NCBI RefSeq assembly: GCF_000331025.1
Contig: NC_020055.1
Location: 3,443,370 to 3,507,369 of the forward strand
Direction of reading: 5' to 3'
DNA: 64,000 bases
From: Maridesulfovibrio hydrothermalis AM13 = DSM 14728
Lineage (GTDB): Bacteria; Desulfobacterota; Desulfovibrionia; Desulfovibrionales; Desulfovibrionaceae
Shown here one piece after another: positions 2,844 to 26,095 of the stretch (within the stretch, counting starts at the first letter, position 1; each line of letters begins with the position of its first letter). Both the position numbers and the translations under genes were made by a program. Below the pieces are notes generated by a model, which saw only the letters and a list, made by a program, of their open reading frames with translations, did not search any database and was not told the DNA's origin.

Positions 2844-2845
2844 GA

Positions 2846-8525: not shown

Positions 8526-8772
8526 ACACTAAAGATAGTCATCAATAATTTTTAAGTCAAAAGCGAAACCGCAAACAAAGCATGAAAGATGACATAAATC
8601 AAAAGGTCTGCTAAATCCTTGACCTATGCAAAACGTAATTAAAGCCAGTCTGGAATAGCCTGCACAGCTGAAACTGTCATCTGAAACACGTCGGCTTTGA
8701 ATAGATTTTCCATACAACAAACAAAATATGTGAAATGCAGGCTTTTTGTTAAAGTCTGAGAAAGGAATAACC

Positions 8773-9033
8773 ATGCGCAGTATAATTTTACTTTTTTTGC
8801 TCGTCCTTGCCGGATGCTCATCATACCACAACCCAAGTCTTGACCCTTCGGTGGATAAAGCTGAACGCTTTAAAAAAGACCGCTCAGCCTGTCTTGACAG
8901 AGCTAAAAAAACAGCAAATTCTGAACCGGGCAATGATCTCCGTTTTCTAAAGACCTATGATCAACAGCAACAGGAATCCACACGAGCAGCCAGAGCCTTC
9001 AAAAGCTCGCATCGGCAGGCAAAGGCTGGGTAA
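8773..9033 (+). CDS. Small lipoprotein
   Basis: An 86-residue protein with a short signal peptide and a clear lipobox (LVLAGC at about residues 9-14), so it should be lipidated and anchored on the periplasmic side. The mature part is short, polar and charged, with a Lys/Arg/Ala-rich end and one further Cys (SACLDRA). The ATG at 8773 is chosen because AAAGGA lies seven bases upstream; a longer frame from 8746 lacks a site. A strong terminator follows directly. No family is recognised. Confidence 0.72.
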   Translation: MRSIILLFLLVLAGCSSYHNPSLDPSVDKAERFKKDRSACLDRAKKTANSEPGNDLRFLKTYDQQQQESTRAARAFKSSHRQAKAG

Positions 9034-9040
9034 AAAAATA

Positions 9041-9077
9041 AAAAAAAGGGAAGCACGACCAATGCTTCCCTTTTTTT
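9041..9077. terminator. Bidirectional terminator between lipoprotein gene and ModF-like gene
   Basis: A GGGAAGCA stem with 7-base loop, flanked by seven A on the left and seven T on the right, so it can stop transcription from both convergent genes. Confidence 0.88.
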
Positions 9078-9101
9078 ATACAAATTTTTAAGAATAACTG
9101 C

Positions 9102-10577
9102 TTATTTGAAATACTCTTCCTTTTTGCCTCTGAATGAAACCCGTCCCTCTTTAAGCTCCAGCACATGAGAAACAGACGGAATCAGTTCTTCGTGATGGTG
9201 GGTAACATAAACCATAGATACCCCGGCAGAAGCAAGTGACTCCAGAAGGTTAAATATTTCCCCGCGCGACTCCTCGTCCACTCCGGCCATAGGTTCATCA
9301 AGAAGCAGCACATCCGGACCTGAAATAAGAGCACGGGCGATAAAAGCTTTACGAAGCTGACCGTAAGAGACCTGCTCCATAGGTCTTTGCGCTAAATCTT
9401 CAATGCCGAAAAACTTAAGCCATTCCCATGCCTTTTCCCGCATTTCGTCATTTATTTCATCAAAAAGCCCCGCTGATGAAAAGAAACCTGAAATGACCAT
9501 GTCAAAAATGGGAATAGGTTTACCGACTGCCTCACCAAAAGAAGCCTGCATAGAAGCTGAAACCATGCCCATACGCCCCCTTACAGAACGTAGAGAATCC
9601 CCCTTTTCAGGGAGTCTTTGCATTTGCTCTTCAGCAGCGTAGGCGGCAGCGTCTCCGTACAAAAGGCGTAATAAGGTCGATTTTCCCGCCCCGTTACACC
9701 CAAGCACAGCCCAGTTTTCCCCGCCGCTCATTTCCCAGTCAATATTGTGCAATACAGTTTTCCCGAGAAAAACCACACTTGAATCAGAGAGACGAAACAA
9801 AGTTTTGCCAGCCTCAACCGCATTAACAGCCGGGGGAATACGTTCCTGAGCGGAATTGACAGTGCAGGCAATCCCCCTGCCCTGCCCGTCTTCACAATGA
9901 TCAATCTGACCATCCCGAATATACAGAGTTTTATTAACGCAGGCAGGAAGCTCTTCCTTGCGATGAGCAGAGCAGACAACAGTGGTTCCGGAAGCGGCAG
10001 CGGCATCAATAGCATGCATAAGCTGAACTCTGGACTGCCGGTCAATCCCCTCAAGAAATTCATCCAGAATAAGCATTTCCGGCTGAGCCATTAGCGCGCG
10101 GGCAATCAGAATCTTACGCCCTTCGCCGCGGGACATGGCCACCATACTGCGTTTGGCAAGATCAAGCATCCCCAGAGACTGCATCAAATCACGTACCTTT
10201 TCGTACTCTTCTTCATCTGCCAGCCTGTAGAGAAACGGTGTATTGTCCTTTCCTGACAAGACCACTTCCTCACCCGTCACATCCCAAGCCAGTTTCAAAA
10301 AAATATCCTGATGCTCAGGAGAAATCATACGGTAACGTTCCAAAGGCTCAAGAGGACTTGAGGTCTTGCCGCCTGCAATAAAATATTCTCTGGTCTTGTC
10401 ATCATCCGGCCAGACCTCTCCTGCCAGAATCATCATAAGAGTAGTCTTGCCTGCACCGTTAGGACCAAGCACAGCCCAATGCTCACCCTGTTTGATATCC
10501 CAGTCAATTCCCTGCAACACTGGTCCACGGTCAAGGGAAAGTGAAACATCCTTCATGGAAACCAATTTTTTACTCAT
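9102..10577 (-). CDS. ModF/PhrA-like protein with two ABC ATPase domains
   Basis: A 491-residue soluble protein made of two fused ABC ATPase domains and no membrane segment. The first Walker A is GPNGAGKTT at about residues 38-46 with Walker B ILDEFLEGID; the second Walker A is GCNGAGKST near residue 288 with Walker B LLLDEPMAGVD. The ABC signature motifs are unusual (MSRGE and VSYGQ instead of LSGGQ), as in ModF/PhrA proteins of molybdate loci. The role of that family is poorly defined; photorepair and molybdenum links have been suggested. No molybdate permease or binding protein is adjacent. It has a terminator on its 3' side and its own promoter region of about 220 bases. Confidence 0.8.
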   Translation of the reverse strand: MSKKLVSMKDVSLSLDRGPVLQGIDWDIKQGEHWAVLGPNGAGKTTLMMILAGEVWPDDDKTREYFIAGGKTSSPLEPLERYRMISPEHQDIFLKLAWDVTGEEVVLSGKDNTPFLYRLADEEEYEKVRDLMQSLGMLDLAKRSMVAMSRGEGRKILIARALMAQPEMLILDEFLEGIDRQSRVQLMHAIDAAAASGTTVVCSAHRKEELPACVNKTLYIRDGQIDHCEDGQGRGIACTVNSAQERIPPAVNAVEAGKTLFRLSDSSVVFLGKTVLHNIDWEMSGGENWAVLGCNGAGKSTLLRLLYGDAAAYAAEEQMQRLPEKGDSLRSVRGRMGMVSASMQASFGEAVGKPIPIFDMVISGFFSSAGLFDEINDEMREKAWEWLKFFGIEDLAQRPMEQVSYGQLRKAFIARALISGPDVLLLDEPMAGVDEESRGEIFNLLESLASAGVSMVYVTHHHEELIPSVSHVLELKEGRVSFRGKKEEYFK

Positions 10578-10739
10578 GACAACTCCACTTCGTAAGATAC
10601 TGAAACCTATAGATTCTAAACCAATTTTCTATTCAGGGCTAAAACATCTACTACTTAAGACCCCCAAGTGCAAGCCGGACAAAAAACAAGCATGACTACT
10701 ACAAGTTGTGCAATTTATAATACTTTATACGCGATGCAG

Positions 10740-10768
10740 TTGATAAAAATTTATTTTGTTCTTATATG
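10740..10768 (+). promoter_or_regulatory. Possible sigma-70 promoter of the TauE/SafE operon
   Basis: TTGATA, a 17-base spacer and TATATG, located 36 bases before the start codon at 10805. Spacing is ideal and the -10 is a fair match. Predicted by eye only. Confidence 0.35.
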
Positions 10769-10804
10769 TAAAGAAAATAGTTTAATAATCAGGCAGGGAA
10801 TCAA

Positions 10805-12268
10805 ATGAAATATCCTTCCGCCCGTTATCTGTTAATACTCCTCTTTGCAGCCCTCCCCCTGCTTATACCTGAGCTGTTGTCTGCAAACAGTAATATAAAA
10901 TTGCCTGATATTATCGGCAACATAAATAACCCGTACATTTTGCCTGATGGAGGCGGCCCCGGTTTTTTTCTGTCCGCTGCCATAGGGATGGTCGCCGGAT
11001 TGCTCAGCTCGGCAATTGGAGCAGGGGGCGGACTGATTGTTGTCCCTGCGCTCATGACCGCAGGCATTTCCGGCATCTATGCAATAGGTTCCGAAATATT
11101 CCGCCTGTTTATTTTCAGCACAATTCAATCTATCCGCATGGGATTCAATAAGCGCATTAACTATCTAATGGCCATATACCTAACCATAGGCACAACCATA
11201 GGCGGATATGGAGGCTACGTATTAACCAAGACGGTTTTTTTCGCTGACCCTGCCGGAAGCGATGTTTTTATTTCATCCATGATCATTTTCTGGCTGATTA
11301 TTTATTCGTTCATCATAATACCGGAATTTCGCGAAGCTGCCCATGAATACGCTCTTGAACTCCTCAAAAAAGAAAAGGGAGAAAAAGAGGCCGATGCCGC
11401 AATCCAAATGGAACAGCCCACTCCTCCTGCAACTGAGACGGGCACAGAAAATAAGAACACAAATGGAGAAAAGGAAAATACTGCCGAAGAGACAGAGGAA
11501 ACAAAAGTAGAAGAAGCTCTGCCCAAAGCCCAGTTTGAAGATGAACTATACCCGGATGAAAAACCGTGGGAAATTGCGAAAACCATTCGCACCATGAAAC
11601 TCCCGCCTTACATTAAATTCCCGGGCACGATCAAATCCGGCGAAGATGACGAACTAGAACCTGCTGATATCAGACGCGCAGGGAGAAATCAGGATTTAGA
11701 TACGCAGGAGGAAGAACAAAAATATGACCGCATCCCGATCATCCCCGCGGTACTGCTTTCCGTGGTTGGTGGTTTCTTCATGGCTATGACCGGATCAGGG
11801 GGCGTAATCCTCAGCTTTACCATCTTAACCAAAGGGTTCGGATGCGTGGCTGCTCTTGTTGCAGGAACAGATCTTGCCAGACTGGCTCTTGCGTCAGGTA
11901 CTCTGACTCTGGGAGCCTTCGGGTTGAACGGTTTTATCAATATTTACTGTATAACGGGACTCATTTTCGGAACAACCACCGGGCTGCATCTGGGCAGCAA
12001 ATCCCTGAAACATATCCAGCCTTACCGAGTGAAAGGACTTATTTCTCTGCTGGTAATCTCGGTCATTTTGAACCGTATTCTGGCCTTACCGCAACAGCTT
12101 AATAAATCTGGAGCATCCATTCCGGCAGGAATTACAGACGCACTTGGTCAAAGCGGCATGTATATCCTGATCATCGGGGCAGCTATTTTCAGCGGCTGGC
12201 TTATTTTCGCTTTTATCAGCGGTGTGCTTGAATCACTTAAACCGGCAGAAAAAGGAGCAGGCAAATGA
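10805..12268 (+). CDS. TauE/SafE (TSUP) family membrane permease with large acidic cytoplasmic-type insert
   Basis: TSUP proteins are 8-helix exporters of sulfite, sulfoacetate or other sulfur-containing anions. This 487-residue version has a signal-like first helix (8-25), the repeat-1 motif GLLSSAIGAGGGLIVVPAL around residues 65-85 and the repeat-2 motif MTGSGGVILSFTIL around 325-340. Between the two halves is a long hydrophilic, Glu/Lys/Thr-rich insert (about 180-300) that contains no membrane segment. AGGGA lies upstream of the ATG. The stop overlaps the start of the next gene by four bases, so the three genes to 14570 are translationally coupled. A role in sulfur-anion movement is an inference from the family. 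Confidence 0.85.
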   Translation: MKYPSARYLLILLFAALPLLIPELLSANSNIKLPDIIGNINNPYILPDGGGPGFFLSAAIGMVAGLLSSAIGAGGGLIVVPALMTAGISGIYAIGSEIFRLFIFSTIQSIRMGFNKRINYLMAIYLTIGTTIGGYGGYVLTKTVFFADPAGSDVFISSMIIFWLIIYSFIIIPEFREAAHEYALELLKKEKGEKEADAAIQMEQPTPPATETGTENKNTNGEKENTAEETEETKVEEALPKAQFEDELYPDEKPWEIAKTIRTMKLPPYIKFPGTIKSGEDDELEPADIRRAGRNQDLDTQEEEQKYDRIPIIPAVLLSVVGGFFMAMTGSGGVILSFTILTKGFGCVAALVAGTDLARLALASGTLTLGAFGLNGFINIYCITGLIFGTTTGLHLGSKSLKHIQPYRVKGLISLLVISVILNRILALPQQLNKSGASIPAGITDALGQSGMYILIIGAAIFSGWLIFAFISGVLESLKPAEKGAGK

Positions 12269-14615: not shown

Positions 14616-16961
14616 ATGAGTGAAAACAACATATTGCGCAGACTTCACACTGTCACCGGACAGGTACAGGGAGTCGGTTTCAGACCTTTCGTTTATAAAA
14701 CAGCCCTAAAATACAATCTTTCCGGAACTGTTCTGAACAGTCCGGAAGGCGTACTCATCGAAGTACAGGGAACACTCCAAAACCTGAATAAATTTGATCA
14801 GACTTTCATTGATGAGCTGCCCAGACTGGCAAGAATTATTTCACACAAGAAAAAAGACCTCATCCCCGTGCAGGGAGAAGAACAATTCTGCATTCTCGCA
14901 TCAACTGCCGGAGAGGGCCATTGCGTGCTTATCAGCCCTGACGTAGCCACCTGCCCTGACTGTTTTGCTGATATGAATGACCCGCAAAACCGCCGTTATG
15001 AATACCCTTTCACCAACTGCACCAATTGCGGCCCGCGCTACACCATCACCCGCTCAATTCCGTATGACCGCCCTGTAACATCAATGGCCTGTTTCCCATT
15101 ATGCATGGACTGCAAGGAAGAATATGAGAATCCACTGGACCGCAGATTCCACGCGCAGCCCAATGCCTGCTCCGAGTGCGGCCCTGAAGTCTGGCTCACT
15201 GACAACGACGGCAACAAACTGGCTGACTCATTGACCGCCCTTTCTAAACTGGCCAAACTTCTCTCCGGAGGTAGAATTGCAGCAATAAAAGGCCTCGGCG
15301 GCTTCCACTTAGTCTGCGATGCATCCAATCCGCAAGCAGTGCAAACCCTGCGTGAACGCAAAAACCGCCCAGATAAACCACTGGCGGTAATGCTTAAAGA
15401 CGTAACTGAAGCTGAAAAACTGGCAGATCTCACAGAAAATGACATCGAACTGCTTGAGGGACTTCAGCGTCCCATCGTGCTTGCACCAAAAAATAAAAAC
15501 TACTCTCTGGCCCCCGAAATTGCACCTGATACTGATTTCATAGGATTGATGGTTCCCTACACGCCGCTGCACCAAGTGCTGCTTAAATATTTTTCAGCCT
15601 TAAACGAAAACTCCAGCCCGTCTGCGCTGGTCATGACTTCGGGCAATATGAGTTGCGCGCCTATATGCATTGGAAATCGAGAAGCTTTAAAACGACTGCC
15701 CCATATTGCAGACGTCTTCCTGTTCCACAACCGCGACATCCTCATCAGGGTGGATGACTCGGTCACAAGATCCGTCCCCGAATTCAATGGTGAGGAAAAA
15801 AACCGCACAATATTCATGCGCAGAGCCAGAGGCTTTACTCCTTCCCCTGTCTTTTTGGCACAAGAAGGCCCATGTGTACTTGGAACCGGCCCGGAGCTGA
15901 AAAACACCCTATGTTTCACCAAAGGCGACCAAGGATTCAGCAGCCAGCATATCGGTGATATGCAGAACCTTGAAACGACCAACTTCTGGAAAGAGATCCG
16001 GCTGCATCTTCAATCCATCCTCAAAATAAAACCCAGGCTCATCGTACACGATCTGCATCCTGATTACCTGACAACACTTCTGGCAGAAGAAATTGCGCAA
16101 AACGAATCAATTGAAACAACAGCTCTGCAACATCATTACGCCCATATCTATTCCGTACTTGCTGAAAACAAACATACCGGCCCAGCACTGGGCTTAGCTC
16201 TTGATGGAACCGGACTGGGTGATGACCGAACGATCTGGGGCGGTGAATGCCTGTACATCGATAATGAAAAGCTTGAGCACAGACGGATTGCTCATTTCAC
16301 ATATCTACGCCTTCCCGGCGGCGAAGCGGCAGTGCGTGAACCGTGGCGCATAGCCAGAGCAGCTGCCACGGACCTCGGCCTTGACTCCCGACAAATCAGC
16401 GTTCCCGCAGAGTTTCAGGCAGGTCTGAAAATGTTCGATCAAATCCTTGAAAAGAATATCAACTGCCCAGCAACCAGCAGTTGCGGAAGACTTTTTGATG
16501 CAATTTCTGCCATGCTGGGGCTATGCAGCAAAATTTCATACGAGGGACAAGCTGCAATAATTCTGGAAAAAAATCAGGATCATACCGAAAAAAACACCTA
16601 CGACTGTCCCGTTGATCAAGCCACCACTCCTTTCACAATCAACACCGGTGAACTTTTCAAACAAGCTTACCGCGACAAAATGAACGGAGTCCCCCCGGCA
16701 ACAATAAGTCGCAGATTTCACAAAGGATTAATCTCCGGTTTAGCAGATTGCGCCGAGCTTGCCGCTGCCAAAACCGGAGTGAAAACCATCGGCCTCAGCG
16801 GCGGGGTTATGCAAAATCTGACCATAGCTGTAGAACTGCCCGAAGAATTAAAATCGCGGGGACTCAATCCACTGGTACACCGCTATCTGCCCCCCAACGA
16901 CGGCTGTATTTCACTTGGGCAGGCTGTATACGGACAGATTTTGCTTAACAGACGCAATTAA
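14616..16961 (+). CDS. hypF: Carbamoyltransferase HypF ([NiFe]-hydrogenase maturation)
   Basis: HypF makes the cyanide ligands of the [NiFe]-hydrogenase active site from carbamoyl phosphate, passing the carbamoyl group to HypE. The 781-residue chain shows all four modules: acylphosphatase domain (about 8-95, with GQVQGVGFRPFVY), zinc-finger pairs (CPDC near residue 112, then NCTNCG, CMDC and CSECG), YrdC-like domain (about 200-390, with KGLGGFHL and MTSGN) and Kae1-like domain (about 400-780, with HHYAH, LDGTG and SGGVMQN). All key motifs are present, so it looks functional. No other hyp gene lies in the window. The ATG at 14616 fits the acylphosphatase start; no strong Shine-Dalgarno sequence was seen. 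Confidence 0.96.
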   Translation: MSENNILRRLHTVTGQVQGVGFRPFVYKTALKYNLSGTVLNSPEGVLIEVQGTLQNLNKFDQTFIDELPRLARIISHKKKDLIPVQGEEQFCILASTAGEGHCVLISPDVATCPDCFADMNDPQNRRYEYPFTNCTNCGPRYTITRSIPYDRPVTSMACFPLCMDCKEEYENPLDRRFHAQPNACSECGPEVWLTDNDGNKLADSLTALSKLAKLLSGGRIAAIKGLGGFHLVCDASNPQAVQTLRERKNRPDKPLAVMLKDVTEAEKLADLTENDIELLEGLQRPIVLAPKNKNYSLAPEIAPDTDFIGLMVPYTPLHQVLLKYFSALNENSSPSALVMTSGNMSCAPICIGNREALKRLPHIADVFLFHNRDILIRVDDSVTRSVPEFNGEEKNRTIFMRRARGFTPSPVFLAQEGPCVLGTGPELKNTLCFTKGDQGFSSQHIGDMQNLETTNFWKEIRLHLQSILKIKPRLIVHDLHPDYLTTLLAEEIAQNESIETTALQHHYAHIYSVLAENKHTGPALGLALDGTGLGDDRTIWGGECLYIDNEKLEHRRIAHFTYLRLPGGEAAVREPWRIARAAATDLGLDSRQISVPAEFQAGLKMFDQILEKNINCPATSSCGRLFDAISAMLGLCSKISYEGQAAIILEKNQDHTEKNTYDCPVDQATTPFTINTGELFKQAYRDKMNGVPPATISRRFHKGLISGLADCAELAAAKTGVKTIGLSGGVMQNLTIAVELPEELKSRGLNPLVHRYLPPNDGCISLGQAVYGQILLNRRN

Positions 16962-17061
16962 TACCCCTACGCCCCCTTAAAACCGGCAATTTGATTCATT
17001 AAGCACTTTACAGACGACTGCCCACCTCTACACACCTGTAATTTTCTGTCATAGCAAAAAC

Positions 17062-17107
17062 AAAATGCGGGAGATACGATGATTAACCATCACATCTCCC
17101 ACATTTT
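17062..17107 (+). terminator. Long imperfect hairpin, probable hypF terminator
   Basis: Nested complementary blocks read AAAATG, GGGAGAT, GATG, a six-base ATTAAC loop, then CATC, ATCTCCC and CATTTT, with small mismatches between blocks. It lies about 100 bases after the hypF stop and has A-runs before and T-runs within its right arm, so it may act in both directions. Confidence 0.6.
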
Positions 17108-17269
17108 ACTTTCAACTCACCGCAACACCAGTTGGGGAGGGAATCGATATAAATAAAACTCTACACACACCCTTGAACCGGCTATAGACTTTTAACCAAG
17201 CCTGCATTGCTTTTTCAAAACCTATAATTATCACCCTTAACGAGTCACAATTAAAAGTTTTGGGAAAGT

Positions 17270-17352
17270 CCAGAGAACCTTTTTTCGAAAAGGTTCTTTG
17301 GTCCCCGAAGGGTCACCGAAGGCTTAATGTCCCGAAAGGGCGCCGAAGGATT
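17270..17352. repeat. Hairpin plus 22-bp direct repeat (CCGAAG-type element)
   Basis: A 14-bp stem (CCAGAGAACCTTTT and its near complement, one G-T pair) with a TTCG loop at 17270-17301 is followed by two 22-base copies (17304-17325 and 17331-17352) that match at 18 of 22 positions; each copy contains CCGAAGG. A second element with a GTCCAGAGA stem and CCGAAG on both sides lies at 55564-55614. They look like copies of a dispersed intergenic repeat that can also act as a terminator. Confidence 0.6.
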
Positions 17353-17359
17353 TTGCCGC

Positions 17360-17788
17360 CTACCAGCCTTTGTGATGTATAATATCTTTAACTTTTTCTT
17401 CGGTATCTTTCTCAACAATAATCATTTTGCGCGCCTGCGCTTTTTTGATTTTGTCGGTAAGCACATTGATATCTGCCGGCTTTTCAACGAAATCCATAGC
17501 CCCGAGCTTCATGGCTTCGATACCTTTTTCAACGGTTGCGTGTCCGCTGAGCAGGATTACCTGCATTTCAGGTCTTGTTTTTTTGATATGCTTGAGTGCT
17601 TCAATGCCGTCCATTCCGGGCATCTGAAGGTCAAGAACGATTGCGTCAAAAGACTCATTGTTAACTTTGTCAAGCGCATCCTGCGGATTGGTGCAAGCTG
17701 TTACATTCATACCGCGCAGTTCCATACGTTCGGCCAGACCTTCAACAAACTCTTTTTCGTCATCAACGAGAAGTACTTTTTCTGCCAT
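17360..17788 (-). CDS. Stand-alone response regulator receiver
   Basis: A 142-residue CheY-like protein. It has the acidic pair (LLVDDEKEF), the phosphoacceptor Asp in IVLDLQMPGMDG near residue 56, the Thr/Ser switch (LLSGHA) and the conserved Lys in EKPAD near residue 107. After the receiver (about 1-118) there is only a short basic helix (KIKKAQARKMIIVEK). There is no output domain. It is the last gene of a seven-gene operon beginning with TetR at 24579, 42 bases after the degenerate kinase. It probably relays or sinks phosphate from the kinase at 18845. Identity as a receiver is secure; its partner is inferred. Confidence 0.9.
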   Translation of the reverse strand: MAEKVLLVDDEKEFVEGLAERMELRGMNVTACTNPQDALDKVNNESFDAIVLDLQMPGMDGIEALKHIKKTRPEMQVILLSGHATVEKGIEAMKLGAMDFVEKPADINVLTDKIKKAQARKMIIVEKDTEEKVKDIIHHKGW

Positions 17789-17830
17789 GATTTCTCTCCA
17801 CCTGCATCATCCGGTGCAGTTTAAAAGTAA

Positions 17831-18463
17831 TTAAAAATTAAGGGTTAATATATAATCATGCGGGCTAAGCTTAATTGAAGCTCCCGCGTTACCGGCTACC
17901 TGTCCAAGACTGGCAAGCTGATCTTCAGGAATAGAACTATTTAATCCTGAGACAGTAATCACACTGCTATCTGCCGCCTTTCCTACTTCAATGCTGATTT
18001 CGCTATCCTTTCCAGCATGATCCATGCTGATTTCAAAGGATCTAGCGATAAGCATCTGTATAATAAACGGATCTCCCTTGCCTTTTACAGGCTCGCCTTC
18101 TTTAAGACAAAGAGTGACACATTTCCGAGACGCAATTCTGGTCAGCAGAGAAATTACAAGTGAGGTCAGTTCATAGAAATCAACTTCGCACTCCGGCAAG
18201 TCCACACTATGGGCAAACTTGTTCATATTTTTAATGATGGAGTCGCCCCGCTTGACCTGATTCTGAATTTTCTCTGCCAGCTTTATCAAACGTTCCGGGG
18301 CAAGTTCCATACCCTGTCCCGCCATAAGTGATAAATCCTGCAACAGCCCTGCATCTTCATTGATGATTGCCAGCACATTTTTCAGATCATGGGAGATCGT
18401 TGCGCTGATCTGCCCGAAAAAGCGGAGTCCGTCACGGTCTTTGTGAAGTTCAGCTGATTCCAT
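17831..18463 (-). CDS. Degenerate histidine kinase (HisKA-like helix, decayed ATPase domain)
   Basis: A 210-residue soluble protein. Residues 15-45 hold a dimerisation/phosphoacceptor helix with the H-box His at residue 25 (ATISHDLKN) and then AIINEDAGLLQDL, nearly the same as the sequence AIINEKAGLLKDL in the full kinase encoded at 18845. The C-terminal half (about 100-210) has the length of an ATPase domain but lacks the N-box asparagines (MLIARSFEISMDHA in their place) and has no DxGxG loop or G2 box. It may therefore accept or remove phosphate without binding ATP. It sits between two receiver genes in the SulP operon. Calling it a phosphotransfer protein or phosphatase is an inference. 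Confidence 0.72.
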   Translation of the reverse strand: MESAELHKDRDGLRFFGQISATISHDLKNVLAIINEDAGLLQDLSLMAGQGMELAPERLIKLAEKIQNQVKRGDSIIKNMNKFAHSVDLPECEVDFYELTSLVISLLTRIASRKCVTLCLKEGEPVKGKGDPFIIQMLIARSFEISMDHAGKDSEISIEVGKAADSSVITVSGLNSSIPEDQLASLGQVAGNAGASIKLSPHDYILTLNF

Positions 18464-18486
18464 GTTCTTCTCCTTAAGGAAGTTTA

Positions 18487-18840
18487 TTAACTTCCCAGAG
18501 CCTGATTGATCTTTTCAACCAGTTCTTCAATTTTAACAGGCTTGACCAAGTAGCATTCAGCTTTTGCGGTTCCGACCGCATAATCATCTTCCGATCCATG
18601 ACCGGATAGAAAAATATATTTCATTCCCGGGCGGATATCTTCGAGCTTTGCTCTCAGTTCAAGACCACTCATACGCGGCATCTTTACATCAAGCACAGCA
18701 AGAACATATTCGTTCTCAGTGACCTTCTTCATGGCTTCCTTTCCCGAAGAAACCCAGTCAGCTTCAAATCCTCTAAAGTAAAGGCGTTCCGAGAGTGCTG
18801 AAACCAGCTCAGCCTCATCATCCACCAGCAAAATCTTCAT
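18487..18840 (-). CDS. Stand-alone response regulator receiver
   Basis: A 117-residue single receiver domain. Key residues are visible: acidic pair in LLVDDEAEL (residues 4-12), phosphoacceptor in AVLDVKMPRMSG near residue 52, switch Ser in FLSGHG and Lys in LVKPVK near residue 101. It has nothing beyond the receiver. It starts five bases after the stop of the kinase gene at 18845, so both are made from one transcript with near-coupled translation, and it is the most likely first partner of that kinase. No DNA-binding or enzymatic output is present. Confidence 0.9.
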   Translation of the reverse strand: MKILLVDDEAELVSALSERLYFRGFEADWVSSGKEAMKKVTENEYVLAVLDVKMPRMSGLELRAKLEDIRPGMKYIFLSGHGSEDDYAVGTAKAECYLVKPVKIEELVEKINQALGS

Positions 18841-18844
18841 TCCT

Positions 18845-20584
18845 CTACCTGTTTTCCTTCAATTTTGGTGAGATCGGCAGCACAAATTTAAACTTCGTAC
18901 CTTCTCCAAGCTTACTTTCTACAGTCATACTTCCGCCAAGATCCTGAACTAAACCATAAGTAATGGATAATCCAAGCCCCGTACCGCCTGACTGTTTCTT
19001 TGTTGAATAAAACGGTTCAAAAATCTTTTTAAGGTCACTTGCAGGAATCCCGCATCCATTATCCTCCACAGTGAACAGAAGGGATTTTTCATCTGTACGC
19101 GATACAGTAACCCCTAAAGCACCACCGTCCTTCATGGCCTGAAATGCATTACTTATCAGATTAAGTAAAACCTGCTCAAGTTTACCCCGATCAGTAACAA
19201 TCTCAAAGATCCCCTTCTCCACTTCAACATTTACATCAATGCTGCGATATTCAGCTTCCTTGTTTAGAAAACTAAGCACAGTATCAATAATCTCCTGTGG
19301 ATAAACCGGCCTGAACTCCATATCACTCTGGCGTGAAAAACCAAGCAGCCTCTTCGTAATGCGCCCGCACCTTTCAACCGAATGAAGCACAGAGTCCACT
19401 AGACCGAGCAGCCTGTCGTCTGCATCATAAGCCTTGCTGAAAGTAAACAAATCTTTCAGCAGTCCTGCTTTTTCATTGATAATGGCAAGCGGATTATTAA
19501 TCTCATGGGCAACGCCGGCCGCAAGACGCCCGATGGAGGCCATCCGGTTATGATGTTCCATCTGTTGCAACGTTTTAGAGCGGGTCCGGTCAGCAATATA
19601 TATTTTTTCTACAAGGTAGGATGCTACTGCCCACATAACTACCAGAATTACCGCAATACTGAAGATAGTAAACCATGTTACCGTGTCACGGGTACTCTGC
19701 CATGCTCCCATGAACTCAGCTTCAGTCTTCACTAAAAGAAGAACAAAGGGAGTGCCTTCAATATAGGCATAACCAACCATAGCAGGTTCGCCTTCACGAT
19801 AAGATATTTCCTCGACCTTAGTCCGGTAGGACTGCTCCGGCAGAGCAAAGGTGACCATTGAGAAAATATCCCCGTTCCACTTGGACGGAGTTTGAAGCAA
19901 CCCGTCACGATTTACAAGAAAAGCATCTTCTTCGTCAGAAAGATCCAGTGAAGAAAATATTTCGTTGAATTTCTTGGTATCCAGAGTTGCCCTTAAAATT
20001 TTAAATCGCTTTTTATCTTCATCAAGAAAATGTTTCACAGCAATAACAAGATGCGGACTGTCACGGAAGCCTAGAAAGACTTCACTAATGTAGATGCCCT
20101 GCTCAACTGCCTGCTTAAACCAATCCTGCCCTTTGTACTCCCTGCCTTCCAGATTATAAGGACCGACATAGGCAACCTGCTTGCCATCTTTATTGATGAC
20201 ACCTAGATCAATGAAACCGCCGAAACTTTTTTTAAGTCCGCGCAACATCCGGGCCAGCCTGTCCTTATCATCAAAAGAGCGAAAATCATTCAGCTCGATA
20301 ATCAGCTTTAGAGCTGATTTCCGTTCTTCCAGAAAGTATGAAATGGCCCTGCGGGTGTTGGACGTAGTCCGGGCCGCCCGCAGGGTATTTTCTGATTTAA
20401 CTGCTCCCCCGGTGACACTGAAGTCGATAGAAGCCATAATTAAAATAGGAATCAGTGAAACCACTACAAGGATTGCAAAGCAAAGCTGCCAGATACGTTT
20501 GTAATCAAACAAACGCTTATAAGGTCCGGCAGGATGTTTATCTGCGTCCCAGAATTTTGGTTTGAATATCCCTTTAATCGACAT
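18845..20584 (-). CDS. Membrane sensor histidine kinase with dCache-type periplasmic domain
   Basis: A 579-residue kinase. The first membrane helix (about 31-52, LCFAILVVVSLIPILIMA) and a second (about 302-325) enclose a 250-residue periplasmic sensor with dCache pattern (GFIDLGVINKDGKQVAYVGP, then GREYKGQDWF). The cytoplasmic part has a HisKA helix with His near residue 360 (GVAHEINNPL) and a complete ATPase domain: NLISNAFQA, DNGCGI, FEPFYSTK, GTGLGL. No HAMP domain is obvious. It lies fifth-to-last in the SulP operon, 25 bases after the receiver fusion. The kinase is intact and probably senses a small external ligand, but the ligand cannot be told from sequence. Confidence 0.92.
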   Translation of the reverse strand: MSIKGIFKPKFWDADKHPAGPYKRLFDYKRIWQLCFAILVVVSLIPILIMASIDFSVTGGAVKSENTLRAARTTSNTRRAISYFLEERKSALKLIIELNDFRSFDDKDRLARMLRGLKKSFGGFIDLGVINKDGKQVAYVGPYNLEGREYKGQDWFKQAVEQGIYISEVFLGFRDSPHLVIAVKHFLDEDKKRFKILRATLDTKKFNEIFSSLDLSDEEDAFLVNRDGLLQTPSKWNGDIFSMVTFALPEQSYRTKVEEISYREGEPAMVGYAYIEGTPFVLLLVKTEAEFMGAWQSTRDTVTWFTIFSIAVILVVMWAVASYLVEKIYIADRTRSKTLQQMEHHNRMASIGRLAAGVAHEINNPLAIINEKAGLLKDLFTFSKAYDADDRLLGLVDSVLHSVERCGRITKRLLGFSRQSDMEFRPVYPQEIIDTVLSFLNKEAEYRSIDVNVEVEKGIFEIVTDRGKLEQVLLNLISNAFQAMKDGGALGVTVSRTDEKSLLFTVEDNGCGIPASDLKKIFEPFYSTKKQSGGTGLGLSITYGLVQDLGGSMTVESKLGEGTKFKFVLPISPKLKENR

Positions 20585-20609
20585 GACCCTTCTCCGGGGA
20601 ATTTACTGA

Positions 20610-21824
20610 TTAAGAGTTACGCAGCTTTGCGTAAGCTTCCTTGAGAGTTGCGCTTAACACTTCAATATCGACAGGCTTGTTCAGGTAAGCGAACGCGCCC
20701 AGCTCCATACAGGTCTTGCGATCCTGATCGGAGCCGTGACCGGTAAGGATGATCACTTCAATGTTCGGACGGTTGGTCTTAACCCGACGCAGAACCTCGA
20801 TACCGTCAATGCCGGGCATCTTCAGGTCGAGAATCATGACTTCAGGCTCGTCATCCTGAACAACATCAAGAGCTGATTCACCGTCATAAACCACCGCAGA
20901 TCCCAGATCACGAAGCATGAGACGTTCAGACAGAGTTTTCACAAACTCCCTTTCATCATCAACAAGCAAAACCCGTGAAGGAAGCTCAAAATCCATGCGG
21001 CGATAGATGTCAGCCTCATAGTACTCTTTACCGAACTTGAAATCCACGCTTTTAACACCTTCAATTGGTTCGGCAATTTCGCGCAAATCATTTTCAAGAC
21101 GTTCAACCATCAGAACCTTTTTATTGATGGACAGGACAATGGCACCATCGTCAGCCTTAACATCAACATTGTGTCCTTTGGATACCAGAAAGCTGGCAAC
21201 TTTTGCTGCGAGCAGAAAATCCTGCACAGCTTTTTTAGAAGCTTCGGTAACATTGACAACGGCGTTGCCTAACTGCTCTTTAATCAGGGCAACAGACTCA
21301 TCCACACCGGTTTTACCGACAGGAATCACCATATCATAAAGATTGTCAGCCCAGGGATCAGTGCTGCCGGTCACTTCGCGCACCCATACAGTCTTTTCCT
21401 CATCGGCCTGCTGTAAAACTTTCACAGCTTCTTTTTCGGAAAGACCTTCATCATTGAGGGCGCACTCAACTCTCTTTTGCACATCGTCAATGATGCAGAC
21501 TTTAAGAACATGGGAAATGTCCTGAGACAAAAGCTGGGTTACAAAGCCCGAAACCAGCAGGTTTTCACCTTCAGCCAGTCTTTTAGCAAGAGCCAGTCTA
21601 AGCCATGCCACGGCCCGCTCTTTTTCATGGCTGAATTTATTAAAGATAGAAGTCTTCGGTGAAAAAGCTTTGGCAATTGCTTTTTCATTCATCCCACTAA
21701 GGGATGAAGCATCAGCTACCAAGTCATTGTCGGTGATAAGTTTGCAACCGGTATCATCAATCAACCGTTTCACAACTGCATCAGCCTGACAAAACAGACC
21801 ACTGAAGATAAATATATCAGACAT
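20610..21824 (-). CDS. Degenerate cytidylate-kinase-like domain fused to a receiver
   Basis: A 404-residue protein. Residues about 1-190 resemble the cytidylate-kinase-like family (Cytidylate_kin2): HVLKVCIIDDVQKRV, then GLSEKEAVKVLQQAD, VTGSTD and NLYDMVIPVGKTGVDES follow that family's order. The N-terminal P-loop (usually GxGGxxIA) is replaced by SGLFCQADAVVKRL, so nucleotide phosphorylation is unlikely. A middle region (190-275) is unassigned. Residues 283-400 are a receiver with DDERE, phosphoacceptor in MILDLKMPGIDG and Lys in NKPVD. The gene follows the SulP transporter by 12 bases. It may couple two-component signalling to nucleotide or transporter state; that is an inference. Confidence 0.75.
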   Translation of the reverse strand: MSDIFIFSGLFCQADAVVKRLIDDTGCKLITDNDLVADASSLSGMNEKAIAKAFSPKTSIFNKFSHEKERAVAWLRLALAKRLAEGENLLVSGFVTQLLSQDISHVLKVCIIDDVQKRVECALNDEGLSEKEAVKVLQQADEEKTVWVREVTGSTDPWADNLYDMVIPVGKTGVDESVALIKEQLGNAVVNVTEASKKAVQDFLLAAKVASFLVSKGHNVDVKADDGAIVLSINKKVLMVERLENDLREIAEPIEGVKSVDFKFGKEYYEADIYRRMDFELPSRVLLVDDEREFVKTLSERLMLRDLGSAVVYDGESALDVVQDDEPEVMILDLKMPGIDGIEVLRRVKTNRPNIEVIILTGHGSDQDRKTCMELGAFAYLNKPVDIEVLSATLKEAYAKLRNS

Positions 21825-21836
21825 TAAAAACCTCCA

Positions 21837-23972
21837 CTAAGCGTTACCGCTGATACGGCAGTAAGTTGTGAGGGGACAATCAGACTCAGATCCACCCCTA
21901 TGGGCCACTTCATGAGTCTTACAAAGAGCTGTTTCAGTATCAGCATAAATATGATCCTTTCCGATTTTTTCGAGCAGATGGGTGCGTTCGAGCACGGCCA
22001 TAACTGCTTCATTAACTCCGGAAAGTGATATATCACGTCCGCCGCTTCGTACAGTATCAACTATCAAGGAAAGAACTTCCTCGCCGGATGCATCTATATC
22101 GTTGATACCGCTGCAAACCAGAATGATATGCTTGAGATTAGGCATTGCGATAATGCGGTCTGAAATCTGATCTTCAAGAAAACTTGCGTTTGCGAAGAAC
22201 AGAGGACCGTCAAAACGGACAACTGCGATACGACCACACTCTTTAAGACCGTGAACGTTGGCATCACGAAGAACTTCATCTGGCCCCTTGGAAAGAACTG
22301 CCACACGGGGACGCATACTCTTATAAAGAAAGACTCCAAGAGAAAGTGCAACACCGATAATGATACCCTTATCAAGGTGAGGAGCAAATGCAAGAGTTGC
22401 GATAAAAGATATAATGGAGATAGCACCATCATATTTCTGAACTTTCCATGCATGAATAAAGCCGGAAGCGTTGATCAATCCGACAACAGCCATCATAATA
22501 ACCGCAGCCAGAACAGCCTGAGGCAGATTATAAAGAAGCGGAGTAAAGAACAGCAGAGTCACTGCTACAATTCCAGAAGTAAACACACTGGAAAGCCCCG
22601 TCACCGCCCCTGCCTGCAAGTTGACAGCAGAACGGGAAAACGAACCGGAAGAAGGATAAGCAGATCCGCATGACCCCAGCATGTTAGCAAGGCCCTGACC
22701 GATAAGCTCCTGATTCGGATCAAGTTTCTGTCCGGTCTTTGCTGCCATCGCCTTGGCAATGGAGATAGCTTCCATGAAGCCGAGCAAAGAAATGATAACT
22801 GCGAAAGGCAACAGTTTCATAATGATCTTAAGGTCGAAAGAAGGAATTTGAAGAGCAGGAAAACCGGAAGGAATGTCGCCGACAACAGCACCGCCGCCCA
22901 TCATTTTCAAGGATGCAGTATCAAGTTCCTTGTTACCGACCTTAATACGCCATGTACGTCCGTCAGCTTCCATGCCAGCAGGAACCTTGCCCTGTTCAAA
23001 AAAAGCCAGAGAACCATCACTCTGCTTTACTCCGCTAAAAAGTATACTGCGCAACGCAGCACGAAGCTCATGAGATTTATGCTTAAGCAGTTTAACCTGA
23101 TAATTGACAACAGCAATATCATGCTCTGCATCGTAATAACCGATCTGGTTTTTATCTGCCTTAGCTTTATCCTCCAGAGCGGCAATAGCTGTACGCTTCA
23201 CTGCAAGAGCCTCAATGCCGACAACTGTTTTGTTGAACTCGTTGATTAAGGTCTGAGCCTCTTTGTCCTGAATAGCTGCAATGTCGACCCGGGCATCATG
23301 GTTGAATCCGGTTGCCCATGAAAGCAGTGTCGTAATTACAACTGCGCACAGAACATTCGGAATCTTGGGGTTAACCTTTTTCAACCCCACCATAATCACA
23401 AAAGCCAGCACCCCCATCCCCAGCGTCGGCAGGTGGGTATAATGCATAGCCCCCTTGATTACGCGTATGATAGTTTCAAAGTGCAACTCTGCTTTATCGA
23501 CATAAACGCCGAACATCTTTGAAAGCTGGGAGGAGGCGATGATGATTGCAGCAGCATTGGTAAAGCCGTTTACAACCGGATGGGAAAGAAAGTTAACAAC
23601 CAGTCCAAGACGCAGAACGCCAAGCATGAACTGAAAGACACCTACCAGCAAAGCCAGAAGCAGCGCATAGGCGATATAACCTTCACTGCCCGCTGTCGCC
23701 AGCGGCTCAAGCGATGCTGCGGTCATAAGAGATACAACCGCAACCGGGCCGGTGGCCAACTGGCGACTGGAACCGAAAAGAGCTGCAACCATAGGAGGAA
23801 GCAAAGAAGCGTAAAGACCGTAGTAAGCAGGCATCCCTGCAAGCTGCGCATACGCCATGGACTGGGGAATAAGTACCAGTGCAACTGTCAGGCCGGAAAT
23901 AATATCGGCTCTGAACGCAGGTCCACTGTACTTTTTGAACCAGTCCAGAAAAGGAAAAATTCTAGTAAGCAT
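21837..23972 (-). CDS. SulP-family anion transporter with STAS domain and long extracytoplasmic insert
   Basis: SulP proteins carry sulfate, bicarbonate or other anions. This 711-residue protein has the family start (RADIISGLTVALVLIPQSMA, residues 21-40, and AGMPAYYGLY), multiple membrane helices, the GQGLANMLGS and SGSFSRSAVN signature segments near residues 430-460 and a C-terminal cytoplasmic STAS domain (about 560-680, with DIDASGEEVL). Between helix segments at residues 225 and 365 there is a charged insert of about 130 residues that ordinary SulP proteins lack. The tail has several Cys and His. It is the second gene of an operon headed by TetR, 13 bases after it, and is followed by five signalling genes. 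The transported anion is not known; sulfate is plausible in this kind of organism. Confidence 0.93.
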   Translation of the reverse strand: MLTRIFPFLDWFKKYSGPAFRADIISGLTVALVLIPQSMAYAQLAGMPAYYGLYASLLPPMVAALFGSSRQLATGPVAVVSLMTAASLEPLATAGSEGYIAYALLLALLVGVFQFMLGVLRLGLVVNFLSHPVVNGFTNAAAIIIASSQLSKMFGVYVDKAELHFETIIRVIKGAMHYTHLPTLGMGVLAFVIMVGLKKVNPKIPNVLCAVVITTLLSWATGFNHDARVDIAAIQDKEAQTLINEFNKTVVGIEALAVKRTAIAALEDKAKADKNQIGYYDAEHDIAVVNYQVKLLKHKSHELRAALRSILFSGVKQSDGSLAFFEQGKVPAGMEADGRTWRIKVGNKELDTASLKMMGGGAVVGDIPSGFPALQIPSFDLKIIMKLLPFAVIISLLGFMEAISIAKAMAAKTGQKLDPNQELIGQGLANMLGSCGSAYPSSGSFSRSAVNLQAGAVTGLSSVFTSGIVAVTLLFFTPLLYNLPQAVLAAVIMMAVVGLINASGFIHAWKVQKYDGAISIISFIATLAFAPHLDKGIIIGVALSLGVFLYKSMRPRVAVLSKGPDEVLRDANVHGLKECGRIAVVRFDGPLFFANASFLEDQISDRIIAMPNLKHIILVCSGINDIDASGEEVLSLIVDTVRSGGRDISLSGVNEAVMAVLERTHLLEKIGKDHIYADTETALCKTHEVAHRGGSESDCPLTTYCRISGNA

Positions 23973-23985
23973 GAGATAAACACCC

Positions 23986-24579
23986 CTAGTTAGGTTTCAA
24001 CATCTTGCGGACTGACTCAATTAACTCGTTAAATAGAGCTCCCGCATCATAGAGATTAAAATTCTTGAATCTCACTAAACCATCTACCATCGTAAAAATG
24101 ATGAGTGCACTCTTTCTGGGACTTACTCCGCCAATGGAGCCATCCTCCAACCCTCTTTCAATCGCCTGTTCAAATAATATAACCAGACAATTGTATATGG
24201 CTTCGAGATTTTCCCGGAATTCAGGTCTGCTTTCAGCAAACTGATATAAGAAATGTCGGTGTAAAAGGAGAAATTGATATTCCATGCGTCCGGCAAGAAG
24301 AAGGTAAAATGCAACCACCTCTTCCATCATTTCAATGCCTGTACCAAGCTCACGGTTTTCCATATGAGCATCAAACTCATCCAGAATACGCTCCCTGGTT
24401 GCTTCAAGTATCGTGAGCAACAGGTGTTCCTTGTTCTTGAAATGATAAAAGATTGTACCCTCAGCGGCACCGGTCATGGTCGACAGTTCATGCATAGAAG
24501 TGTCTGTAAAACCTTTGTTGGCGAAGAGTATGGTGGCGGCCTCCAGTATTGCCGCCTTCTTTTTGGACATCTTGGTCAT
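23986..24579 (-). CDS. TetR/AcrR-family transcriptional regulator
   Basis: A 197-residue repressor-type protein. The N-terminal helix-turn-helix is clear (AAILEAATILFANKGF, then MHELSTMTGAAEGTIFYHFKNKEHLL, about residues 8-52, quoted in part), followed by an all-helical ligand-binding domain. It is the first gene of the SulP operon. A perfect 9-base inverted repeat lies 20 bases upstream of its start, with two related sites within 270 bases, which is the usual arrangement for autoregulation. The effector is unknown. The gene is the only DNA-binding protein in the seven-gene unit. Confidence 0.93.
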   Translation of the reverse strand: MTKMSKKKAAILEAATILFANKGFTDTSMHELSTMTGAAEGTIFYHFKNKEHLLLTILEATRERILDEFDAHMENRELGTGIEMMEEVVAFYLLLAGRMEYQFLLLHRHFLYQFAESRPEFRENLEAIYNCLVILFEQAIERGLEDGSIGGVSPRKSALIIFTMVDGLVRFKNFNLYDAGALFNELIESVRKMLKPN

Positions 24580-24598
24580 TTTTACTCCTGTTTAAAAA

Positions 24599-24618
24599 CC
24601 GACTGAGCACTCAGTCGG
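24599..24618. promoter_or_regulatory. Palindromic operator upstream of the TetR gene
   Basis: CCGACTGAG and its exact reverse complement separated by CA, 20 bases before the TetR start codon. Two further sites share the CTGAGT core: 24777-24800 (arms AAAACTGAGT and ACTCGGTTTT, four bases apart) and a half-like site at 24831-24843. The first site is the best candidate for TetR binding. Confidence 0.7.
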
Positions 24619-24776
24619 ATTTGAAAATAATCTGAATCCGGGTTCAATGTCAACCCGCTTATTTTTACAAAAAAGTCCCGCGGCAACTACTAACACGCTA
24701 AGATATAACAATATTAGTCAAATAAGAGCTATATTTTTTAAATGATCTTTTTTTCACATAAGTCAATTTCACCCTT

Positions 24777-24800
24777 AAAACTGAGTTCCCACTCGGTTTT
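24777..24800. promoter_or_regulatory. Second TetR-type inverted repeat
   Basis: AAAACTGAGT and ACTCGGTTTT flank a four-base TCCC centre; nine of ten arm positions pair. It shares the CTGAG/CTC core with the operator at 24599 but has wider spacing. Confidence 0.45.
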
Positions 24801-24890
24801 AAGAGGCTATATTCCTTTAATTTTCTACAAAAAACTGAGTGGCCACCACAAAAAAAAACATCCTTTCCTTCCCCCAAAGGATGGAAATAA

Positions 24891-24926
24891 ATCAGCCTGA
24901 CCCCGCTTTCACGGGATCAGGCTGAT
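24891..24926 (-). terminator. Terminator after the aminotransferase gene
   Basis: A 15-base stem (ATCAGCCTGACCCCG and its complement with one mismatch), 6-base loop. On the minus strand it is followed by a T-rich run and lies 30 bases past the stop of the gene ending at 24956. Confidence 0.8.
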
Positions 24927-24955
24927 TTCGGCTGATTTATATGTGATTAAATGAA

Positions 24956-26095
24956 CTAGCTGAATTTCAGCAAGACCTTTTTAAGAACTGCAAGGTACTC
25001 TTCAAGCATCTCAGGCAGGATATCCGCCATATGTCCTACACGAAAAATTGGTGATTCGCCCTGCTCTGCAAGCTCATTGTTGATCTTGCCATAACCGGGA
25101 TCGAACAGATATCCGTAACCGCGCATAAGTTCTTTAACTTCTTTTAACTTGTCAATTGTCATATATGAAGGAGTCTTGAAAGTTGTCAAAGTTGGCGAGC
25201 GGTGGCCTTCCTGTGCAAATAATTCATAGCCGTCTACTGTTTCAACCCATTTTCCTGCGATGGAGCGCATGTTTTCATGACGCTTAAAACGGCCTTCGAC
25301 AGTTTCATCATTTACAATGTAATCAAGCTGCACACACATCTGGTTAGCGAGAGTTCCATTAGGTGTAGTCAGAGTCTGATTCAATTTTGCCTTGGCAATC
25401 TGAGCCAGAATATCCGTTGTATACCCCCTGTTCTCAACACCGGCAGCTTTCTCAATGCCCTCTTCGCTGATAAAAGCAACACCAAATCCGGCCGGCAGGC
25501 CAAGTCCCTTCTGAGTGGCAGTACAATACATAAGCGGTCGGCTTTCACTAATGAAAGCAGGAGCACCTCCGAAAATGCTGACTGCGTCAATAATCGGCTG
25601 CGCGCCATGCGCCCGTATCAATTCGCAAACAGCAACCACATCATTAACAACACCGGTGGCCGTTTCGTTATGAGTAAAAGTAACCAGATTCGGCTTATGC
25701 TTTTTGAGAGCTGCTTCCAGTTTTACCAGATCAATAGCCCGTCCATGAGTAAATTTCAGTTGAACAGCATTCTTTCCGTTTACCACAGCAAGCTTGTGGT
25801 AAAGATCCCCAAACGCTCCTACAGAAACATTGAGTACCTTATCAGAATCAGCAACAAGGGAACGTATGGATGCTTCGAGCACGTTTGTACCGGAACCATT
25901 GAAAATAACCGGAGTATACCCTTCGGGACTGCCGGCGATGGTCATGATATTTTTCATAATCGGCTCAAACCGTTTCGGGTTTTCAGCATCTCTGTGACCG
26001 AATTCAGGCAATAAACCGGCTTTTCGAACTTCTTCGCGAAGCAGAATGGGGCCGGTTATAAAAAGTTTTAGCTCAGCAAAATCATCACCGATCAT
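24956..26095 (-). CDS. Class V PLP-dependent aminotransferase (alanine-glyoxylate/serine-pyruvate type)
   Basis: A 379-residue fold-type I PLP enzyme. The family signature opens near residue 14 with FITGPILLREEV, followed by the PLP-binding NGSGTNVLEAS (about 66-76), HNETATGVVND (the substrate/cofactor region), DAVSIFGGAP with the pyridine-binding Asp (about 167) and the Schiff-base Lys in ATQKGLGLP (about 194). Members transfer amino groups between alanine or serine and glyoxylate, pyruvate, phosphonoacetaldehyde or similar acids; the specificity cannot be fixed here. The gene is divergent from an FAD/Fe-S 2-hydroxyacid dehydrogenase, so a link with glycolate, lactate or serine metabolism is plausible. 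A PhnW-like role is possible but no phosphonate genes are near. Confidence 0.85.
   Translation of the reverse strand: MIGDDFAELKLFITGPILLREEVRKAGLLPEFGHRDAENPKRFEPIMKNIMTIAGSPEGYTPVIFNGSGTNVLEASIRSLVADSDKVLNVSVGAFGDLYHKLAVVNGKNAVQLKFTHGRAIDLVKLEAALKKHKPNLVTFTHNETATGVVNDVVAVCELIRAHGAQPIIDAVSIFGGAPAFISESRPLMYCTATQKGLGLPAGFGVAFISEEGIEKAAGVENRGYTTDILAQIAKAKLNQTLTTPNGTLANQMCVQLDYIVNDETVEGRFKRHENMRSIAGKWVETVDGYELFAQEGHRSPTLTTFKTPSYMTIDKLKEVKELMRGYGYLFDPGYGKINNELAEQGESPIFRVGHMADILPEMLEEYLAVLKKVLLKFS

Follow-up and report, generated by a model that had tools for sequence, protein, structure and literature searches.

Gene content of the locus

We have examined a 64,000-nt stretch of DNA (the window) from Maridesulfovibrio hydrothermalis AM13, whose genome consists of two contigs, the window being part of the one of 3.70 Mb, and describe here seven of its genes that set a SulP anion transporter among the components of a probable phosphorelay (Table 1). 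The seven open reading frames (ORFs) are all on the minus strand and together span positions 17360-24579. Their order in the direction of transcription is: TetR – SulP-STAS – kinase-like/receiver – dCache kinase – receiver b – pseudo-kinase – receiver c (kinase-like here meaning cytidylate-kinase-like), with intergenic gaps of 13, 12, 25, 4, 23 and 42 bases. An initial annotation, made from the sequence alone, had listed these seven genes in this order with gaps of 4 to 42 bases, and both the ORF positions and the Pfam domains confirm it. Its "degenerate" labels also stand, since the pseudo-kinase is without G1 and G2 boxes and the kinase-like part is without the loop of its relatives. The number of sigma-70-like promoters matched across the region is what chance would give (13 found, 11.5 expected), so the hexamers upstream of TetR are at most suggestive of a promoter. 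A known RNA element inside the operon was rejected, an Rfam scan of 16900-25200 giving no match at the gathering threshold.

Table 1. Genes and other features of the SulP operon, in coordinates of the window (aa, amino acids).
Feature	Position	Strand	Evidence
TetR-family repressor, 197 aa	23986..24579	-	Pfam TetR_N 2.4e-12
SulP (SLC26-type) anion transporter with STAS domain, 711 aa	21837..23972	-	Sulfate_transp 1.1e-105, STAS 4e-17, TIGR00815
Hydrophilic SulP insertion, residues ~229-372	22857..23288	-	segment lengths across operon and short SulPs
Cytidylate-kinase-like (PF13189), BON-like and receiver fusion, 404 aa	20610..21824	-	Cytidylate_kin2 2.7e-14, Response_reg 1.6e-26
Membrane sensor kinase, dCache-HisKA-HATPase, 579 aa	18845..20584	-	dCache_1 1.8e-15, HisKA 7.2e-9, HATPase_c 1.2e-28
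Single-domain receiver b, 117 aa, proposed first acceptor	18487..18840	-	Response_reg 2.8e-21
Pseudo-kinase, 210 aa, proposed histidine phosphotransferase	17831..18463	-	HisKA 2.2e-4 (below Pfam cut-off)
Single-domain receiver c, 142 aa	17360..17788	-	Response_reg 1.3e-31
Promoter-like hexamers TTGACA-18-TATTTT upstream of TetR	24624..24653	-	consensus scan, 10/12 positions
Palindrome, candidate TetR operator, core CTGAG-N-CTCAG, 20 bases	24599..24618	-	sequence
Terminator-like hairpin 3' of the last gene	17062..17107	-	20-pair stem and T-run

Conservation and co-inheritance

The seven genes are one conserved, co-inherited operon of many sulfate reducers, found in several families of the phylum. 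A full-length kinase-like/receiver protein is encoded in 34 of 149 genomes of the source family (the source genome included). In the 29 other loci of this family that have wide flanks, the first five genes, TetR to receiver b, are always in the same order, and all seven are so in 25; receiver c is lacking in three (L057, L058 and L060) and the final two genes match only weakly in L065. A scan of named GTDB genomes, from which 80 of 157 relatives were retained, extends the distribution to Solidesulfovibrio, Salidesulfovibrio, Desulfonema, Desulfobacter, Desulfosarcina, Desulfocicer, Desulfurivibrio and Desulfobulbaceae, among others. With profiles built from the family operons, the exact seven-gene string was recovered in 27 of the 38 named loci having ample flank (a minimum of 3.2 kb before and of 4.6 kb after), a set that reaches from Desulfovibrio to Desulfobacter, Desulfonema and Desulfurivibrio. 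In the other 11 (L097, L099, L101, L102, L110, L116, L132, L136, L141, L160 and L164) a gene is lacking, split or moved; L093 is an example of a named locus with the complete set. Counted gene by gene in the testable named loci, SulP is present in 76 of 78, the kinase in 66 of 67, receiver b in 57 of 62, the pseudo-kinase in 52 of 56, TetR in 51 of 57 and receiver c in 45 of 51, and the median gaps are 13, 22, 44, -4, 26 and 60 bases. Because one order recurs both inside the family and across others of the phylum, we reject a chance neighbourhood; that the genes would be conserved together, which the initial annotation had set as a point on which its proposal would stand or fall, has held.

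The proteins have also diverged together. Over 69 seven-gene loci, the pairwise distances of the kinase-like/receiver protein correlate with those of the kinase (r 0.85), TetR (r 0.80) and SulP (r 0.74). Moreover, dsrA is present in 47 of 50 genomes of the phylum that carry the kinase-like gene in a frame of receiver length, against a base rate of 190 in 395 (hypergeometric p = 1.6e-13, which, like all our P-values, ignores shared descent). These 50 carriers were hand-picked among the matches listed by a frame of at least 359 aa, the receiver not being confirmed in each. The three without dsrA are G190 (94% complete), G189 (67%) and G224 (62%). One of the named loci, L136, comes from a bin labelled Gammaproteobacteria (bin397) and has SulP and a kinase-like/receiver gene with only a short stretch resembling the sensor kinase; this could reflect either wrong binning or a transfer.

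A probable relay without DNA-binding output

The dCache kinase appears to be a complete enzyme, with its H, N, G1 and G2 boxes kept in 30, 29, 27 and 30 of 30 orthologues, respectively. The pseudo-kinase is quite different. Its HATPase domain gives no Pfam match and HisKA, below the cut-off, is its sole one; His25 is conserved in 60 of 60 sequences, the G1 and G2 boxes occur in none of the 60 and a loose N-box pattern in five. The predicted model (pLDDT 96) nevertheless has the two-domain DHp-CA fold of a kinase, with a DHp hairpin of helices 2-49 and 56-86 that holds His25. Since no sequence has a G1 or G2 box, a second active kinase was rejected. We propose that the protein serves the relay as a histidine phosphotransferase, derived from a kinase and without an ATP site, in the manner of ChpT or Spo0B. 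ChpT itself is neither among the Foldseek matches listed (the best 50 of 676) nor among nine profile matches, and for this reason we say that the pseudo-kinase may work like ChpT, not that it is a ChpT. The "degenerate kinase" of the initial annotation thus remains degenerate, with its role sharpened to that of a probable phosphotransferase.

The kinase and the pseudo-kinase were compared at the positions His+8, +11 and +15, which PDB titles name as rewired in HK853. Both proteins have I-E-L there, a triad that is absent from all 26 other HisKA kinases of the genome that could be read (27 readable of 30 fetched, out of 55 HisKA matches), and in 59 paired loci the two agree at these positions in 34, 51 and 55 cases.

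The receivers are small. No receiver b exceeds 130 aa over 59 loci, and no receiver c exceeds 156 aa among its 77 best matches, some of which must be the kinase-like protein's receiver because receiver c is lacking in places. Pfam reveals no DNA-binding output domain in the receivers of the operon and all those measured are too short for one, which supports the earlier view of a relay without a classic output domain. Among 63 receiver matches in the genome the closest to receiver c is the receiver of the kinase-like protein (43%), and four receivers of another cluster are nearly as close.

Taken together, the His25/G-box pattern, the kinase fold, the shared I-E-L triad and the receiver similarities support a four-step relay, which we regard as quite probable: dCache kinase – receiver – histidine phosphotransferase – receivers. 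Which receiver comes first we infer from the gene order.

The kinase-like protein and its relatives

The kinase-like part of the third protein of the operon scores well over the PF13189 cut-off (54.2 against 28 bits) and the fold matches PF13189 structures (3hdt, TMt 0.81; 3fdi, 0.71). The segment that we call BON-like scores 16.2 bits against a cut-off of 27 for BON (PF04972; E 0.013), with a predicted a-b-b-a-b order that is compatible with BON. In the receiver, D289, D290, D333, T361 and K383 are intact, and all five key residues are kept in 41 of 41 proteins. Thus the protein resembles Cytidylate_kin2 in family score and fold; it differs in having a fused receiver and in missing the relatives' loop. 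An ISRGSYSxGK-type loop is found in none of the fused proteins (0/41 and 0/80), whereas 41 of 69 receiver-less relatives have it by a strict pattern and 54 by a loose one. The classical GxxxxGK[ST] loop occurs in neither group (0/69 in the receiver-less relatives); given that these have only a loop of SRxSxSxGK type, nucleotide binding by them is only presumed.

Permease genes are frequent neighbours of the receiver-less relatives. A SulP, DASS or TauE/SafE gene lies within 2 kb in 19 of 40 loci (13 DASS, five TauE/SafE and one SulP, the last being the seven-gene operon's own SulP in L260), against none found in 20 random stretches of 11 kb. These 40 loci were taken in score order, excluding hits near contig ends, with the permeases identified by iterated profiles. 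An earlier set of 16 (L231-L233 and L235-L247, the receiver-less subset of 20 hand-picked loci) gave 7 of 16. Several loci come from one genus, so the counts are not independent. The arrangements are varied. In L231, L232, L236 and L247 there is a DASS module with two kinase-like genes, a receiver and a kinase, and L234, L249, L350 and L356 have the order kinase-like/receiver – receiver – x – DASS. Two genomes of one genus (L250 and L351) combine TetR, kinase-like/receiver, kinase, pseudo-kinase and receiver c with TauE/SafE and no SulP, and in L352 SulP and DASS are in a single run with a CBS protein.

That SulP, DASS and TauE/SafE replace one another in this way is our strongest reason to think that transport is what the kinase-like protein serves, and from the sequences it appears to be the best link of the relay to the transporter. 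The initial annotation had phosphorylated receivers acting on the transporter or its STAS domain; the tie to anion transport holds, recurring as it does with three permease families, and the likely contact is the kinase-like/receiver protein rather than any receiver. In the literature covered (main-text passages of openly available papers) we found nothing that joins such a protein to transport.

A broader view, doubtful but possible, is that in sulfate reducers the kinase-like proteins of PF13189 serve quite generally as regulatory subunits for the importers of sulfur oxyanions (SulP, DASS and TauE/SafE). The receiver-less form would read a nucleotide through its conserved SRGSYSxGK loop, perhaps ATP, AMP or adenosine phosphosulfate (APS), tying uptake to the energy state. 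The operon would have exchanged this input for a phosphorelay: with the loop lost and a receiver fused, the first step of sulfate respiration could be gated post-translationally by a swappable protein.

Several other relatives deserve a brief mention. In L114 and L260, which are one contig, a receiver-less kinase-like paralogue is added at the operon's end. Elsewhere in the source genome (L077, 9593-12361; contig C2, ~2135.6-2138.4 kb), a receiver-less kinase-like gene is head to head with a second, short SulP. L345 (6063-7622) and L353 (3286-4812) encode kinase-like proteins of 509-520 aa with ~340 residues that have no Pfam match, each gene directly preceding a TauE/SafE-like gene (Pfam-tested in L345), and one of the kinase-like genes of L252 and L253 is fused to a universal-stress domain.

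The transporter and the repressor

The SulP protein scores 442.7 bits with TIGR00815 (cut-off 380.45) and its C-terminal STAS domain 62.3 bits (cut-off 22.6). It is a long form with the motif AYYGLY; YYGLY is kept in 93 of 96 operon SulPs, the residue before it being A in 57, P in 34, S in three and V in two. Between the two halves of the membrane domain there is a hydrophilic insertion, 147-165 aa in all 96 operon SulPs and 20-24 aa in three short SulPs, which from the family topology is probably periplasmic. The stand-alone SulPs are ORFs of 709-841 aa, an overall length like that of the operon SulPs (their insertion was not aligned), and we have set aside the idea that the insertion is an operon-specific part. 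In motif and length, though not from a tree, the protein resembles group Ci of the putative sulfate transporters in PMC5840216. The likely substrate is sulfate, judging by these sequence features, and the DASS and TauE/SafE partners of the kinase-like family fit sulfur oxyanions. In L110 (Salidesulfovibrio brasiliensis, ~2200-4330) SulP is split into two ORFs in different frames, either a frameshift or a sequencing error.

The first gene has a TetR_N domain and a palindrome upstream, which fits a repressor of the TetR family. The operator core precedes TetR in 56 of 85 loci, compared with 19 of 1700 random 250-base pieces, and the source genome has a single perfect site (no mismatch). TetR is therefore probably the local repressor of the operon.

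A model for the control of sulfate uptake, and its alternatives

We give about an even chance to the reading that dissimilatory sulfate reducers use this operon to control their sulfate uptake, with a relay that would act on the transporter through the kinase-like protein. The dCache kinase would sense a periplasmic ligand, our best guess being sulfate or another sulfur oxyanion, and phosphorylate receiver b. Receiver b would then hand the phosphoryl group to the pseudo-kinase, and this, acting as histidine phosphotransferase, would pass it on to receiver c and to the receiver of the kinase-like protein. The latter would be the output: its phosphorylation may alter the kinase-like/BON-like part so that it binds SulP, at the STAS domain or the cytoplasmic face, and either opens or restrains transport. 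Receiver c could be a phosphate sink or a second output. Separately, TetR would repress the operon through the one palindromic operator. A direct action of the relay on SulP is plausible, as far as gene content and motifs can indicate.

The choice and control of sulfate importers in sulfate reducers is an open question. According to PMC5840216 (2018), no studies had identified the sulfate-uptake proteins of these bacteria, and sulfate reduction persists in a D. vulgaris mutant that lacks its three annotated permeases (PMC7531388). The operon names a transporter, a likely sensor, a relay and a likely contact protein together, and suggests that sulfate uptake may be adjusted at the membrane. It is not the case, as had been supposed in the initial annotation, that no such system is described. 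A recent paper (PMC11887813, 2025) reports a sulP cluster with two-component genes, a TetR and an operator in Desulfobacteraceae and in Desulfovibrio salexigens. It shares with our operon SulP, cache-kinase two-component genes, TetR and a 16-bp palindromic operator, and is very probably the same cluster. Its authors note a shared cache domain, suggest that sulfate is sensed and, describing the regulators as "WalR type", propose promoter binding by the response regulator. For the receivers of this cluster the sequence argues against such an output: they have no DNA-binding domain, and what we propose is a phosphotransferase and, as output, the kinase-like protein. The main text of that paper never mentions a cytidylate kinase, CMK or a phosphorelay. 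It does report that SulP is abundant and constitutive in one strain, Desulfosarcina variabilis, which fits a control of activity. If the kinase-like protein gates transport as in our model, it would regulate transporters from permease families that are unrelated to one another, and the published transcriptional model would need correction.

That transcriptional model is the alternative that survives best, even if we consider it unlikely: the kinase senses sulfate, an activated response regulator binds the transporter promoters and TetR adds a second layer. The published proposal and its "WalR type" regulators speak for it, as does the conserved operator-like palindrome, and a DNA-binding regulator encoded elsewhere could be the partner of the relay. 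However, the operon receivers in the measured loci are too short for a DNA-binding domain, another receiver ORF of at least 200 aa, measured from stop to stop and so overestimated in size, is found within 7 kb in at least 9 of 80 loci (a lower bound, as some contigs are short), and constitutive SulP is reported in PMC11887813 itself.

Improbable, in our view, is a flow in the reverse direction, with SulP as a co-sensor that sets the kinase, perhaps via the large and probably periplasmic insertion beside dCache, and the relay having its output elsewhere. The precedent is the DauA-DctA-DcuS system of E. coli (PMC5703999), in which a SulP protein is likewise coupled to a two-component sensor; there the direction is from transporter to sensor and the output is transcriptional. 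The presence of the insertion in all 96 operon SulPs is in accord with such a role, but stand-alone SulPs are equally long overall, with the same reservation as to alignment, and a similar relay also adjoins TauE/SafE in place of SulP. Quite improbable is that the relay acts on TetR, a phosphorylated receiver binding the repressor and releasing the operon, so that the output would be transcription by way of a binding partner. TetR is indeed the first gene, is co-inherited with the kinase-like/receiver gene and has only one perfect operator in the genome; yet L132, L137 and L141 keep the relay and transporter with no TetR found, and none was seen in the DASS modules L231, L236 and L247. Finally, it is very improbable that the relay genes are ordinary co-regulated neighbours, with no more in common than a sulfate-linked promoter and with an unrelated target, for, although receiver c is exchangeable and a related relay exists elsewhere in the genome (L313, see below), a gene order kept over many families and a pairing with three permease families are hard to explain by co-expression alone.

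There are, nevertheless, a number of observations that weigh against the model of a relay acting on SulP through the kinase-like protein. Within the relay, ChpT is missing from the fold matches listed for the pseudo-kinase, as noted above, and receiver b ranks only 15th among the genome's matches to receiver c, so that the operon receivers are not a tight family. Receiver c correlates poorly with the other genes (r 0.31-0.48) and is lacking in some loci, and TetR could carry all of the control. As to the transporter, ten of the 41 family genomes with this SulP have it with no operon gene adjacent in the pieces of DNA examined (four of these pieces end at contig ends), from which it follows that SulP can exist without the operon. 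Conversely, L068 and L069 keep the kinase-like/receiver gene with no SulP adjacent, and G109 has this gene and no SulP of the operon clade. Of the receiver-less relatives, 21 of 40 (9 of 16 in the earlier set) have none of the three permeases within 2 kb, and two (L252 and L253) adjoin Nramp genes, meaning that the kinase-like family may not be limited to anions. Also, we noticed no fusion of SulP to a kinase-like or receiver domain, though no systematic search was made.

Related modules

A single-domain receiver belongs to the CckA-ChpT-CpdR/CtrA phosphorelay of Caulobacter, as it does to the SulP operon. The two also share a kinase and a kinase-derived phosphotransferase without ATP use (ChpT, PMC3433190). 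In the operon, by contrast, the receiver is a separate protein; there is no evidence of descent from ChpT and no CtrA-like regulator was seen.

A sibling of the relay also occurs in many genomes of the source family. Of the 149 family genomes, 56 have a sibling-type kinase (at least 47% identity to one reference) and 31 the SulP operon, with none having both (hand-picked lists). Eight of the 56 were fetched (L070-L074, L076, L078 and L089). The module, which in L070-L072, L074 and L078 adjoins genes for a TauE/SafE permease and a sigma-54 activator, has the arrangement kinase – receiver – pseudo-kinase – receiver and is without a kinase-like/receiver gene. The activator was not seen in L076, nor the permease as a clear ORF in L073; the permease was Pfam-tested in L074, and L070, L071, L072, L076 and L078 have a similar ORF. 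L245 and L358 are intermediates, having a SulP-type kinase near a TauE/SafE gene. In L070 a kinase-like/receiver gene without SulP adjoins the TauE-type module and appears degraded in its receiver part.

The DVU2957-DVU2967 operon of D. vulgaris Hildenborough (PMC4641369) is the likely counterpart of the sibling module, an assignment made from gene content and the sequence GAFPGA and not from alignment. Both would comprise a TSUP permease, a sigma-54 activator, a kinase, receivers and a pseudo-kinase, and they differ from the SulP operon in having TauE/SafE and sigma-54 control instead of SulP and TetR. DVU2958 has been singled out as a sulfate candidate. The sibling activator of L073 (3651-5423) carries GAFPGA, the altered loop reported for DVU2960. 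The genome of M. hydrothermalis itself has a related cluster (L313, contig C2:1806000-1825000, at 5110-12119 of this locus), with a kinase 32% identical to that of the sibling module, four single-domain receivers, a TauE/SafE permease and a pair of DUF1538 proteins.

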